A stretch of 64,000 bases of DNA from Deltaproteobacteria bacterium (GTDB lineage Bacteria > JAGRBM01 > JAHCIT01): NCBI GenBank assembly GCA_026129095.1, contig JAHCIT010000013.1:1-64000 (forward strand), given 5' to 3'. Every line of letters begins with the position of its first letter. Position 1 is the first letter of the stretch. The position numbers were made by a program, and so were the translations under genes. The notes under the pieces are model-generated. The model was not told the origin of the DNA. It ran no database searches and was given only the letters and a program-made list of their open reading frames with translations. Positions 53,859-63,930 of the stretch are shown one piece after another.

Positions 53859-54689
53859 TTACTTTCCCTGGAACACGGGCTGACGTTTTTCGATAAAGGC
53901 CCGCTGGCCCTCGCGCAGATCCTCTGACAGGAAACAGGCGATCCGGATCTGCTTGAGTTCCTGTTCCCTGGCGGCGTCCAGCGGAGGAGCGTCCAGCAGG
54001 TAGCGGATCGTCTTTTTCATCCCGCGGACGGCAAGTGGGGCGTTGGCCGCAATCCGCTGAATGAGTGTTTCTGCGGCCGCGTCCAGGTTGCTCCGGTCCG
54101 CAATCCGGCTGACGAGTCCCAGCCGGAGTGCCTCCTCCATCGTGACCGGTTCGCCAGCCAGGAACAGCATGCGCGTAGCTCCCGCGCCGATCAGGTCAAT
54201 GAACTTCTTGATACCCCGAGGATGATAACAGATGCCCAGTCGTGCGGGCGGCATCGAGAACTTCCCGTGCGAGGCAGCCAGGCGAAAGTCGCAGGTGACG
54301 GCCAGTTCCGCTCCCGCTCCATAGGCATGGCCGTTCAGGATAGCGACTGTCGGGAGGGGAAACTCCTCGACCCTATCCAGCATCCTTAGCAGTTCGTTGG
54401 CTTCGATGTCGTTCGAATCCTTGCGGACGCCATGGCTATCGCCGGGGCGGGCGCCTCCGGTCGGGATCGCGGCAATGTCATAGCCGGAGCAGAACGCTTC
54501 GTCACCGGCCCCGCGGAATATCACGACCCGGACGTCATTATTCTTCTGAACGTCATCCAGAACTTTCGAGACAGCCACTGCCATCTCCGCATCCAGGGAG
54601 TTCCGTTTGGCGGGATTGGTGAGCTGGATTCGGGTTACAGGGCCGGTCTCGACGAGCACCTTGCCGCTGGCGAGCGATTGGGTAGCCAT
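53859..54689 (-). CDS. Enoyl-CoA hydratase/isomerase family protein (crotonase fold)
   Basis: 276 aa from ATG 54689; GTG 54716 would add nine residues. Crotonase fold: oxyanion-hole CSGYDIAAIP and GHAYGAGAELAVTCDFRLAA, which contains the first conserved glutamate. The second catalytic glutamate of classical hydratases (PExxLG) is replaced: the sequence reads FSMPPARLGICYHP. Simple hydration of enoyl-CoA is therefore doubtful; isomerase, hydrolase or decarboxylase activity is possible. It shares direction with moxR and is divergent from the epimerase gene. Confidence 0.88.
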   Translation of the reverse strand: MATQSLASGKVLVETGPVTRIQLTNPAKRNSLDAEMAVAVSKVLDDVQKNNDVRVVIFRGAGDEAFCSGYDIAAIPTGGARPGDSHGVRKDSNDIEANELLRMLDRVEEFPLPTVAILNGHAYGAGAELAVTCDFRLAASHGKFSMPPARLGICYHPRGIKKFIDLIGAGATRMLFLAGEPVTMEEALRLGLVSRIADRSNLDAAAETLIQRIAANAPLAVRGMKKTIRYLLDAPPLDAAREQELKQIRIACFLSEDLREGQRAFIEKRQPVFQGK

Positions 54690-54835
54690 TACCTGTGAGC
54701 TTGGCCAATCGGGCACAGAGGCTCAAGGGCCGCAAACACCCTGTTCCTATGCCATGTCTGCCCGGCTTGCCTCATTTAGACCGTGCGGTAGGGTTTGGCT
54801 GGGGAAACGGAAGCGGGCAGGAGGTTGATGCAGAC

Positions 54836-59147: not shown

Positions 59148-60341
59148 ATGGATACCAAGGCGGGCTGGCGATACCGGTACGAGCCGTTCGGCGGGATTAT
59201 CTCCGTCGAGGAGCCGCCGCTCCTCATGCTGGTGGACCAGGACTACCTGCGCGAGCGGGGCGTGGCGGAAAGCCCGGCGTGGAGTGAGCCCTGGGACGGC
59301 CAGCTTTCGGCGCCGACAGAAGTGCATCTGGCGCTCACCAACTATTGCGCTGCCGGCTGCACGGCTTGCTACATGGACTCGCGGCCGACTGACCGGCTGG
59401 AGACCGAACGGAAGGATTATGAACTGGCCCTGGGCCGGATCCGTACTCTGGCTGGAATGGGTGTATTCCATGTGGCGCTGGGCGGCGGAGAGACGCTGGA
59501 AGTGCCGTGGCTGTTTGATCTCGCCGCCGAGATGAGAAAGCTCGGCATGGTACCGAACATCACGACGAGTGGCCTGGGCATGACGGAGGAGAAAGCCCGC
59601 CGTTGCCGGATATTCGGGCAGGTGAACGTGTCGGTGGATGATCTGGGCGAGCGTTACCGCGAAAGCCGCGGATACCAGGGGTTCGAGGCGGCTGAGAAAG
59701 CAATCGGCTTGCTGCAAAGAGAGGGCATCCCGGTTGGCATCAACTGCGTCATCTCCCGCAAGAACATCGGCCACCTGGATGAGATATTCGCCTGGGTGAA
59801 GCGGAATAAACTTCTGGAGATCGAGCTGCTGCGCTTCAAGCCGGCGGGACGTGGCGCCGAACACTATGGGGAGTTCTGCCTCACGGCGGAGCAGGCGGAA
59901 AACTTCTTCCCGCAGGTAAAAACACTCACGCGCAAGCACCGGATCCGGGTAAAACTCGACTGCTCGTTCGGGCCGTTCGTCTACTTCCACAAGCCAGACC
60001 GGGAGACCGTGCGGTTTTTCTCCATCCGGGGCTGCGAGGGGGGCAACTGGCTCGCCGCCGTCCACCCCGATGGCCGGGCGGCCCCATGCAGTTTCGCCTG
60101 GGATGAAAGTGTTCCGGTGGCTGATCTGCCCTCGAAATGGAAAGACCCGTCGGCCTTTGCCAACTTCAAGGCATGGTGGACAAACCCGCCTGAGCCCTGC
60201 GCCTCGTGCGACTATCTGGACCTTTGCCATGGTGGATGCCATGCGGTGTCGAAACACACGAACGGCAGTTTCCAGGCACTCGATCCCGAGTGTCCTTCGG
60301 TGCGGCGCTACCGGGCGGGACTGGAGGGGAAGCAGGGATGA
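59148..60341 (+). CDS. Radical SAM/SPASM domain protein
   Basis: 397 aa. The radical SAM 4Fe-4S motif is CAAGCTAC (C67, C71, C74), followed by the glycine-rich GGGETL SAM-binding region. The C-terminal SPASM domain has a leading pair of cysteines (IRGCEGG, AAPCSFAW), then CASCDYLDLCHGGC (CX2CX5CX3C) and a last DPECPS, so two auxiliary clusters are expected. Residues 9-38 (RYEPFGGIISVEEPPLLMLV...) form a separate N-terminal block. SPASM enzymes modify peptides or proteins, but no precursor peptide gene was found. It is coupled by ATGA to two small membrane protein genes. Confidence 0.93.
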   Translation: MDTKAGWRYRYEPFGGIISVEEPPLLMLVDQDYLRERGVAESPAWSEPWDGQLSAPTEVHLALTNYCAAGCTACYMDSRPTDRLETERKDYELALGRIRTLAGMGVFHVALGGGETLEVPWLFDLAAEMRKLGMVPNITTSGLGMTEEKARRCRIFGQVNVSVDDLGERYRESRGYQGFEAAEKAIGLLQREGIPVGINCVISRKNIGHLDEIFAWVKRNKLLEIELLRFKPAGRGAEHYGEFCLTAEQAENFFPQVKTLTRKHRIRVKLDCSFGPFVYFHKPDRETVRFFSIRGCEGGNWLAAVHPDGRAAPCSFAWDESVPVADLPSKWKDPSAFANFKAWWTNPPEPCASCDYLDLCHGGCHAVSKHTNGSFQALDPECPSVRRYRAGLEGKQG

Positions 60342-60814
60342 GCCAGATTGTTTTTGAATCGTCGGCGCGTCTGCTCACGCTGCTGCACGGTCTTGCCGGA
60401 ATCGCGCTTACTGGCGCACTTACCCACGGGGCGGTTTTCATCTGGAAAGGAAACCGCACCGGGGCGGCGGGCTACTACCGGCGGGCGGAGAAGTTCTGGC
60501 CCGTCATTCACATATCGCTCTTTGCTTCCATGCTGCTGGGGTTCATTGCCTACCCGACCTACCGGATCCGTACCCGCGCCGAGTTCCTCGACGCCCACTA
60601 TCCGCTGGTGGTGGACCTGTTCGATCTCAAGGAAAACTACGCCTCGATCGTTTTCGTGCTGGTGTTCGGGGCCTGGCTCCTCCGTCACGCACCGCTCAAA
60701 AGCCAGGCGCGGCAGCTTCTGCACGACAACTTCTACTACGCGGCCACGGCCCTTACCTGGCTTATTGCCGTGCTGGGGCTATGGGTGACGCTGCACCGGG
60801 GGATCGGTACATGA
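60338..60814 (+). CDS. Four-TM membrane protein coupled to the radical SAM gene
   Basis: 158 aa from ATG 60338, overlapping the radical SAM stop. Four TM helices: about 10-35, 52-73, 101-116 and 133-152. Histidines H17 and H30 lie 13 residues apart on the first helix, and H58 is on the second, a spacing that could hold heme b. That is inference only. A conserved-looking loop RAEFLDAHYPLVVDLFDLKENYA joins TM2 and TM3. Family unknown. Confidence 0.7.
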   Translation: MSQIVFESSARLLTLLHGLAGIALTGALTHGAVFIWKGNRTGAAGYYRRAEKFWPVIHISLFASMLLGFIAYPTYRIRTRAEFLDAHYPLVVDLFDLKENYASIVFVLVFGAWLLRHAPLKSQARQLLHDNFYYAATALTWLIAVLGLWVTLHRGIGT

Positions 60815-61185
60815 GTGAAGCTCCAGAAAACAGTACGAAAGGCACCGGCGTGGCTGCTGCCGCGATTCTGGTGAGCACCTTTGGGCTCATGTTCGCGCTT
60901 CTGGCGATTCTTCCTGTCAAGGTGCCCGCCTACATCCCGCTGGAACACCGCTGGCAGTGGGGGATGCCCGATCCTCCGCTCATCGGGATGGACTACTACG
61001 GCCGGACCATCGTCGCGCTGGTTGTGGCGGTCGTCGCTTCCGGCATCGCCTGGATCATCGCCGGTCCCGTTGCCAGATGGAAACCGGCTGAAAACTCCCA
61101 GGGGGTGAAGATGCTCGCTATCTACGCCTTCACAGGGACGGCGCTGTCGGTGTTCATCTACTGCTATACGCTCGTATTCAAGTGA
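60811..61185 (+). CDS. Three-TM membrane protein, third gene of the radical SAM unit
   Basis: 124 aa from ATG 60811, overlapping the previous stop (ATGA). Three TM helices near residues 14-37, 67-90 and 101-121, separated by a loop with HRWQWGMPDPPLIGMDYYG. With the preceding four-TM protein it may form a seven-helix membrane complex. Family unknown. No other gene follows in the unit. Confidence 0.68.
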   Translation: MSEAPENSTKGTGVAAAAILVSTFGLMFALLAILPVKVPAYIPLEHRWQWGMPDPPLIGMDYYGRTIVALVVAVVASGIAWIIAGPVARWKPAENSQGVKMLAIYAFTGTALSVFIYCYTLVFK

Positions 61186-61303
61186 TCTGTGCCGGGAGTC
61201 TTGCTCCCCATTGACTCTCCGGTCGATTTTGGCTCGACTGGCCGTTCCGGGTGGAGCATTGTGGCCCCCGGCTATCTCCAGGGGAGTTCAAAGGTAACAG
61301 CAT

Positions 61304-62716
61304 ATGGTCGGCATCATGGCATACGGGGCATATGTCCCCTTTCACCGGCTCCAGCGCAAGGCGCTCAACGAGGCCCACGGCAAGCCGGGAGGCAAGGGCG
61401 AGCGGTCGGTTGCCAACTACGACGAGGATTCGGTTTCGATGGCGGTTGAGGCCGCCTGGAATGCCTTGTGGAAATACGACACGAAGCAGGTGGGGACAGT
61501 CTATCTCGGCACGACGACGAATCCGTACGCCGAAAAGGCTTCCAGCACGACTATTGCCGCCGCCCTCGACATGCCACCGCAGGTCCGCACGGCCGATTTC
61601 GGTGATTCGCTCAGGGCGGGTTCGAGTGCCCTGCTGGCGGCGCTGGATGCGGCAGTCTCGACGGGTAAGCCCGCACTGGCGCTGGCCGGGGACTGCCGGA
61701 TCGGCGGAGCCGGTGGCGGCAACGAAAGCAGTTTCGGTGACGGGGCGGCCGCGTTCCTGTTCGGAACAGGGGATCTTGTGGCGCGGGTGCTGGCGACGGC
61801 CAGTGTTGCCAACGAGATCGTGGACAACTTCCGCCGCCATGAGGACGTGATGGTCCGCAACTGGGAAGAGCGGTTCGGCATTGTCCAGGGTGTGAACCGG
61901 GCCATACCTGCAGCGGTGAAGCAGGCGCTCCAGCAGGCGGGTCTCAAAGGGGAGCAGGTGGACCGGTTCGTCTGCGCCTCGCCTTCGAGCAAGGCAACGC
62001 AGGCCGTGGCCAAGATGTGCGGCATCAGGCCGGAAGCCATCGAGGATGCGCTGGAAGCCACGGTCGGCCAGGCAGGCGCCGCCCACGGACCGATGATGCT
62101 CACCGGGGCACTGGAAAAGGCGAAAGCCGGCGACAAAATCCTTTTCGTATCTTATGCCGAAGGAGCCGATGCGCTGCTCTTGGAGGCGACACCGGGCATT
62201 GACGCCTGGCGCCCCAAGCGGCACCTCTCTGACCTTATTGAACGCAAGCGGAACGACATCCGCTACACGGACTACCTCAGGTGGCGGAATCTGCTTGATT
62301 TCGAGCCGCCCCGCCGCCCGGAAATGAAGCGTCCGGCAGCAACTGCCATGTTCCGGAACTATCACCAGAACCTCGGCCTCTACGGAAGCCGCTGCACGGC
62401 TTGCGGAGCATTGAGCTACCCCAAGCAGCGTGTCTGCTGGAAGTGCCGTGCCAAGGACAAGACCACCGACTACTCGTTCCGTACGGCCAAGGGAAAGATA
62501 CGGACATTTTCGGCCGACCATTTGGCCTACACACCTGCGCCGCCGGAACTGCTGGTGGTGATCGATTTTGAGGAAGGGGGACGGCTCATGTGCAACATGG
62601 CCGACGTTGACCTCAAGAACGTCAAGGTTGGCGAGCCGGTCGAGATGACCTTCCGCCGGCTCTATGAAGCGGGTGGAATTTTCAACTACGCATGGAAAGC
62701 GAAGGCGGCGGGCTGA
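61304..62716 (+). CDS. HMG-CoA-synthase-fold protein fused to DUF35 (zinc ribbon/OB-fold)
   Basis: 470 aa; AAAGG 9 nt before the ATG. Residues 1-300 have the thiolase-superfamily HMG-CoA synthase fold (MVGIMAYGAYVPFHRLQRKAL; GDKILFVSYAEGADA). Residues 350-465 are DUF35, with zinc ribbon C364, C367, C378, C381 and an OB fold. In the archaeal thiolase/HMGS complex these are separate chains; here they are fused. The expected catalytic Cys, His and Asn positions appear to be L103 (GDSLRAGSS), A225 (VCASPSS) and Q256 (VGQAGA). HMG-CoA formation is therefore unlikely. It is followed at 32 nt by the thiolase. Confidence 0.88.
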   Translation: MVGIMAYGAYVPFHRLQRKALNEAHGKPGGKGERSVANYDEDSVSMAVEAAWNALWKYDTKQVGTVYLGTTTNPYAEKASSTTIAAALDMPPQVRTADFGDSLRAGSSALLAALDAAVSTGKPALALAGDCRIGGAGGGNESSFGDGAAAFLFGTGDLVARVLATASVANEIVDNFRRHEDVMVRNWEERFGIVQGVNRAIPAAVKQALQQAGLKGEQVDRFVCASPSSKATQAVAKMCGIRPEAIEDALEATVGQAGAAHGPMMLTGALEKAKAGDKILFVSYAEGADALLLEATPGIDAWRPKRHLSDLIERKRNDIRYTDYLRWRNLLDFEPPRRPEMKRPAATAMFRNYHQNLGLYGSRCTACGALSYPKQRVCWKCRAKDKTTDYSFRTAKGKIRTFSADHLAYTPAPPELLVVIDFEEGGRLMCNMADVDLKNVKVGEPVEMTFRRLYEAGGIFNYAWKAKAAG

Positions 62717-62748
62717 TCCAGCCTTCCTCTTAAGGGGAGTACGAAATC

Positions 62749-63930
62749 ATGGCAGGAACCATCAAGGACCGTGTGGCAGTCGTCGGCATGGGATGTTCGA
62801 AGTTCGGCGAACGCTGGGAATCCAGCGTTGAGGACCTGCTCGTCGAGGCAGCCTACGAAGCCTATGAATCGGCTGGCATAGACCCCAAGCAGCTCGAAGC
62901 GGCATGGTTTGGCACCATGAACTCCGGCCGGGCAGCCCTGCCGCTGTCGCAGTCGCTGAAGCTCGACTACATCCCGATTACCCGCGTCGAGAACATGTGC
63001 GCTACCGGCAGCGAGGCCTTCCGGAATGCCTGTTATGCGGTCGCTTCTGGTGCCTATGACCTGGTGATGGCGATCGGTGTCGAGAAGCTGAAGGATTCCG
63101 GCTATTCCGGTCTCACGTCAGCCATGCCCGATTCCGACGGTACCGAGCCGAACCTCTCGGCTCCATCGGCCTTTGCGCTGCTGGCCCCGGCCTATGCGGC
63201 CAAATATGGCGTCAGTACCGAGAAGATGAAGGAGGTACTTTCGCGCATTGCCATGAAGAACCACGCCAACGGGGCGCTCAATCCCAAGGCGCAGTTCCAG
63301 AAGGCAGTCTCGATGGACGAGTGCCTGAAGTCACCCACGGTGGCGAGCCCGCTGGGCATTTTCGACTGCTCGGGGGTCGCCGACGGGGCCGCTGCCGCGA
63401 TCATCTGCCGGGCCGAGGATGCCCACAAGTACAACAAGAAGCCGATGTACGTGAAGGCACTCACCATTGCCGCCGGGACGGGGGAGGGTGCACTCAACCC
63501 GGACTTCGACTTCACCATGATCAATGAGAACGTCCGCGCCGCGAAGGAAGCCTACCGGCAGGCGGGCATCACAGACCCGGCGAAGCAGATCTCCATGGCC
63601 GAAGTCCATGACTGCTTCACGCCGACCGAGCTCGTTATCTACGAAGACCTCGGTTTCACCGCTCGCGGGCAGGGCTGGAAAGACGTTCTGGACGGCGCGT
63701 TCGAACTGGGCGGCCGTTTGCCCGTGAACCCCGACGGCGGCTTGAAAAGTTTCGGTCACCCCATCGGTGCGTCCGGCCTCAGGATGCTCTACGAATGCTG
63801 GCTCCAGTTCCGCGGTGAGGCGGGAAAACGCCAGCTTCCCGACCCCAGGCTGGCTGTCACCCACAACCTGGGCGGCCAGCCTTGGCGTTGCGTCGCCTTC
63901 GTCAGTGTCGTCGGCAAAGAGGCCGGGTGA
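62749..63930 (+). CDS. Thiolase (SCP2-type acetyl-CoA acetyltransferase family)
   Basis: 393 aa. Thiolase fold with an intact nucleophile cysteine in VENMCATGSEAFRNA and an intact histidine in LKSFGHPIGASGLRM. The second cysteine region reads THNLGGQPWRCV, the form seen in SCP2-type thiolases. AEVHDCFTPTE matches the family. It probably binds the adjacent DUF35-containing protein, which in known complexes channels acyl-CoA between sites. The substrate is unknown. AGGGGAG lies about 13 nt before the ATG. Confidence 0.93.
   Translation: MAGTIKDRVAVVGMGCSKFGERWESSVEDLLVEAAYEAYESAGIDPKQLEAAWFGTMNSGRAALPLSQSLKLDYIPITRVENMCATGSEAFRNACYAVASGAYDLVMAIGVEKLKDSGYSGLTSAMPDSDGTEPNLSAPSAFALLAPAYAAKYGVSTEKMKEVLSRIAMKNHANGALNPKAQFQKAVSMDECLKSPTVASPLGIFDCSGVADGAAAAIICRAEDAHKYNKKPMYVKALTIAAGTGEGALNPDFDFTMINENVRAAKEAYRQAGITDPAKQISMAEVHDCFTPTELVIYEDLGFTARGQGWKDVLDGAFELGGRLPVNPDGGLKSFGHPIGASGLRMLYECWLQFRGEAGKRQLPDPRLAVTHNLGGQPWRCVAFVSVVGKEAG

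Follow-up and report, generated by a model that had tools for sequence, protein, structure and literature searches.

A fused pseudo-HMG-CoA-synthase/DUF35 protein as the probable non-catalytic partner of an adjacent thiolase

What does a protein with the fold of HMG-CoA synthase (HMGCS) and none of its catalytic residues do beside an intact thiolase? The window, the whole 64,000-nucleotide stretch of deltaproteobacterial DNA analyzed here, raises this question with two genes on the forward strand (+) that are separated by 32 bases. The first (61304..62716) encodes a fused pseudo-HMG-CoA-synthase/DUF35 protein of 470 amino acids and the second (62749..63930) an SCP2-type thiolase of 393 amino acids with Pfam thiolase domains; both open reading frames are unbroken. 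The fused protein is probably a non-catalytic scaffold or CoA-site partner of the adjacent degradative thiolase.

Domains and fold of the fused protein

Residues ~1-330 (61304..62293, +) form a domain of the HMGCS/KAS III fold, as identified by Foldseek and alignment, and residues ~350-470 (62351..62713, +) form a zinc ribbon and OB fold of the DUF35/ChsH2-like type (PF12172 and PF01796, both above cut-off). Within the 470-residue chain, Pfam places ACP_syn_III_C (PF08541) at 209-288, zf-ChsH2 at 359-385 and OB_ChsH2_C at 396-451, and the four cysteines of the zinc ribbon are complete (C364, C367, C378 and C381). The protein falls below the curated HMGCS models NF003274 (197.8 versus 244 bits) and TIGR00748 (147.1 versus 353.35 bits). 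Its sequence matches in the PDB include PhlA and, from the archaeal complex 6ESQ, both the HMGCS and the DUF35 chain (6esq_E, E = 7e-16). An AlphaFold model computed with 37 family sequences as input (pLDDT 91.3, pTM 0.92) ranks the HMGCS of 6esq/6et9 (TMt 0.88-0.90) and PhlA first in Foldseek, and matches to 6esq, 5m3k and KAS III assign the first domain to the HMGCS/KAS III fold.

The Pfam domains, the 6ESQ matches and the unbroken reading frame bear out the first-pass annotation in its description of a pseudo-HMGCS and DUF35 within one polypeptide. A frameshift or assembly artefact as the source of the fusion is ruled out by the intact reading frame and by the same fusion elsewhere. An open frame of 447 amino acids lies antisense to the fused gene (61178-62521, -); it is probably a by-product of the base composition of the fused coding sequence.

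Active-site residues across the fused family

Alignment with the 6ESQ HMGCS places T71 at the catalytic Glu82, L103 at Cys114, A225 at the His of the FHQP motif and Q256 at the Asn of the GNTYSG motif. The window protein thus has none of the catalytic Cys, His, Asn and Glu residues of an HMG-CoA synthase. The Leu, Ala and Gln that had been assigned from the sequence to the Cys, His and Asn columns are exact, and the replacement of Glu by Thr is additional. The corresponding residues of PhlA are C (Glu column), G (Cys column), Q (His column) and D (Asn column).

Fused homologues were collected from genome assemblies and plasmids. None of 115 full-length sequences retains the nucleophilic Cys, its place being taken by Leu in 82, Gln in 9, Ile in 8 and other residues in the rest, in a sample that is skewed to close relatives, so that a distant Cys-bearing fused protein is possible. 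The catalytic His is likewise absent from all 115, its column often holding Tyr (49/115) or Pro (31/115), while the catalytic Glu is kept in a single sequence and the Asn in 50. In contrast, the catalytic Cys, His, Asn and Glu are all present in each of the seven unfused archaeal-type HMGCS of this sample. Eight fused proteins displayed individually, including haloarchaeal, Streptomyces and Sphingobium sequences, all lack the Cys. The alignment contains no intact triad at other positions, nor does it offer an alternative nucleophile: every Cys and Ser of the synthase domain stays below 90% conservation among the 115 homologues. Closer relatives commonly have a Cys at column 54, where the window protein has Ala.

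Four other residues, D98, R132, E141 and D146, are highly conserved among the 115 fused homologues, and R132 and D146 are near-invariant in the fused family yet unlike HMGCS. This pattern in the sequences could mean more than scaffolding. One reading is that the active site has been rebuilt and the fused protein catalyzes another reaction, a new reaction being among the options of the first-pass annotation; the synthase domain is conserved across phyla and is therefore under selection. However, positive evidence for a new reaction is lacking, a conserved Cys or Ser is absent as noted above, and PhlA sets a precedent for a domain of this kind without catalysis. Many KAS III proteins also carry a GDG-type motif, and the role of D146 may therefore be structural. 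A new reaction is most improbable.

Another reading, in line with the shuttle option of the first-pass annotation, is that an acyl or pantetheine chain is still held in the HMGCS-like pocket, or passed through it, without catalysis. The thiolase and HMGCS of 6ESQ share one CoA site (as summarized in PMC12329534), a continuous cavity runs through PhlA, PhlB and PhlC in the PhlABC complex (PMC6392133), and the four conserved residues would suit such a role. The bulky Leu at the Cys position and the Tyr or Pro at the His position argue against it, since the old pocket is expected to be filled; this reading is unlikely. It is equally doubtful that the near-invariant D98, R132, E141 and D146 mark a rebuilt HMGCS-like pocket for a bulky ketoacyl-CoA or product acyl-CoA that the thiolase receives from it or delivers to it. 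If true, such a handover would mean that a biosynthetic enzyme, now dead, has become part of a widespread channelling complex in catabolism.

The fused family is found in Bacillota, Chloroflexota, Desulfobacterota, Proteobacteria, Actinomycetota and haloarchaea. A contig scan with a single fused sequence found no relative, and one with an alignment as query found 512. The recurrence of fused homologues with these features in many phyla places the observation far beyond chance. In FastTree phylogenies the fused proteins form one clade (support 0.93-0.95), within which Bacillota proteins are the companions of the window copy (support 0.98; 43-49% identity). Its nearest relatives are in Peribacillus, Oceanobacillus and the Desulfotomaculum group, although the copy in the one same-order genome compared is more distant (33%); horizontal transfer of the fused gene is possible. 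A tree in which PhlA was sister to the fused clade proved to reflect the rooting, and with KAS III and MvaS added PhlA joins HMGCS with moderate support (0.84). As PhlA lies outside the fused clade at this moderate support, its loss of Cys may be independent; the losses in PhlA and in the fused family may represent either a single event or independent ones. A search of the open literature returned no description of the fused, active-site-less family as such.

The partner thiolase and its genomic context

The window thiolase has an intact catalytic set consisting of Cys84, the HDCF motif (H287 and C289) and the GHP motif (H337), in agreement with the earlier statement that its Cys and His are kept. 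A thiolase related to it adjoins the fused gene in 107 of 118 cases; a contig end cuts four of the others, and none is nearby in seven. Among the full-length partner thiolases, 96 of 96 have all four catalytic residues intact, namely the nucleophilic Cys, the His and Cys of HDCF and the His of GHP. Distances among the fused proteins and among the thiolases are strongly correlated (Mantel r 0.80 for 96 pairs; permutation maximum 0.17). This correlated divergence would fit a complex, but equally the joint inheritance of an operon. On two haloarchaeal plasmids (L138, 3826-6440; L142, 3817-6422), the fused proteins lack the Cys and the thiolase gene lies upstream, not downstream. One genome has five fused copies, three of them beside a full-length thiolase and two beside a thiolase that the contig end truncates. 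A separate DUF35 protein adjoins another thiolase in genome G000 (locus L002; contig C6, 173976-177155).

The genes next to the window pair encode a radical SAM/SPASM protein, two small membrane proteins and, downstream, GroES/GroEL; none is a beta-oxidation gene. The radical SAM/SPASM protein (59148-60341, +) resembles mycofactocin and PqqE maturases but scores far below their cut-offs, and the two small hydrophobic proteins that follow its gene (~60338-61185, +) have no Pfam match. The related loci contain no relatives of the radical SAM/SPASM protein or of these small proteins, and a conserved operon beyond the pair is thus not claimed. An enoyl-CoA hydratase homologue is encoded in the window at 53859-54716, on the strand opposite to the pair.

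Because these neighbors are not beta-oxidation genes, the catabolic direction rests on the relatives. Annotated plasmid neighbors of the relatives encode acyl-CoA dehydrogenases, enoyl-CoA hydratases and SDR/3-hydroxyacyl-CoA dehydrogenases, as well as CoA ligases, CoA transferases and Rieske dioxygenases. Among 80 loci from named genomes, many of them short stretches, acyl-CoA dehydrogenase is present in 25, and enoyl-CoA hydratase and AMP-ligase in 17 each. The operons of the relatives are of the beta-oxidation type, for aromatic or steroid acids, and include an estrogen-type cluster.

A biosynthetic complex would be the alternative, in which the thiolase forms a C-C bond by Claisen condensation or Friedel-Crafts acylation, as in PhlABC and MucABC, and the fused chain corresponds to PhlA plus PhlB. 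PhlA and MucA are among the closest solved relatives, PhlA is likewise Cys-less, and the host genes beside the window pair are not catabolic. However, the partner thiolase has the full set of residues including the HDCF Cys, and it belongs to the acetyl-CoA acetyltransferase family NF004810 (625 bits versus a cut-off of 403). It matches the archaeal thiolase 6esq_A, among its best three PDB matches (E = 4e-61), far more strongly than PhlC (E = 5e-32). The related operons are catabolic as well, and a biosynthetic role seems improbable.

A role for the fused protein in isoprenoid synthesis is ruled out. The window genome (96.65% complete) contains DXR and no detected HMG-CoA reductase, and its isoprenoids are made via the MEP route. 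The fused query matched no other protein in this genome.

Proposed role and known systems

Support for a scaffold or CoA-site partner comes from the fusion, the family-wide loss of residues, the retention of the thiolase residues, the adjacency, the correlated divergence and the absence of a mevalonate pathway. We infer the physical complex, the binding of CoA, the catabolic direction and the substrate. The HMGCS-like domain, now without an acyl-accepting Cys or acid/base residues, would serve as a scaffold, which may be dimeric by analogy with PhlA. The zinc-ribbon/OB domain would dock onto the thiolase and probably help bind CoA, as do the separate DUF35 chains of the archaeal thiolase/HMGCS complex, PhlABC and BbsAB. 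The chemistry would be left to the thiolase, with Cys84 accepting the acyl group and the HDCF residues His287 and Cys289 together with His337 acting as acid/base; the reaction is most likely the thiolytic cleavage of an unusual beta-ketoacyl-CoA in catabolism. As the pair occurs across many bacteria, the fused protein most likely acts as a structural partner of a thiolase that cuts carbon-carbon bonds and is not a one-off oddity. The first-pass annotation was right on the fusion, the lost residues, the intact thiolase and the scaffold that it put first, but it missed that the family is widespread.

The labels under which databases list this family, among them 'HMG-CoA synthase', '3-oxoacyl-ACP synthase III C-terminal domain protein' and 'OB-fold domain-containing protein', are misleading. 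The family-wide loss in the one protein and retention in the other predict a two-gene thiolase that degrades steroids, aromatics and other difficult acids.

The archaeal acetoacetyl-CoA thiolase/HMGCS/DUF35 complex (6ESQ, 6ET9) has the same three folds and an intact SCP2-type thiolase, and its HMGCS is the best fold match for the window synthase domain. Its HMGCS is catalytic and its DUF35 stands on a chain of its own, whereas the window protein unites the two and has lost the synthase active site; unlike the archaeal system, the window genome lacks the mevalonate pathway. The PhlABC complex of Pseudomonas protegens (5M3K, 5MG5) and MucABC (9VBO) combine inactive HMGCS-like, DUF35 and active thiolase-fold subunits, as here. 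PhlA lacks the Cys and Glu, only PhlC residues catalyze, and all three Phl chains are required (PMC6392133); the pairing of inactive with active thiolase-superfamily members, and the fusion of DUF35 to such members, were noted in 2010 (PMC2954200). DUF35 is the connector that holds such complexes together (PMC12329534). This precedent and the connector role underlie the view that the fused protein is a scaffold and contributes to the CoA site. At the level of genes alone, the window is PhlABC-like in encoding an inactive HMGCS-like part, a DUF35 part and an active-looking thiolase together. It differs in that PhlABC consists of three separate chains and performs biosynthetic acyl transfer, while the synthase-like part of the window is fused; with PhlA outside the fused clade, the pair is not a PhlABC acylase proper.

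In the BbsAB benzoylsuccinyl-CoA thiolase and the ChsH2/Shy complexes, DUF35 sits on an SCP2-like thiolase or a thiolase-like aldolase in aromatic or steroid acyl-CoA degradation; unlike the window pair, these lack an HMGCS-like domain. The edc estrogen cluster of N. tardaugens includes an 'HMG-CoA synthase' (EGO55_13555) next to a thiolase, with acyl-CoA and 3-hydroxyacyl-CoA dehydrogenases; its authors could assign no step to this HMGCS homologue and suspected that it does not act as a condensing enzyme (PMC7793797). The likeness lies in this placement beside a thiolase and in a Novosphingobium ES2-1 plasmid, where the types of edc-operon genes surround a fused Cys-less protein in the same order; a difference is that the edc host is a steroid degrader. 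The proposed partner role offers a testable answer to the presence of an 'HMG-CoA synthase' in estrogen-degradation clusters (PMC7793797).
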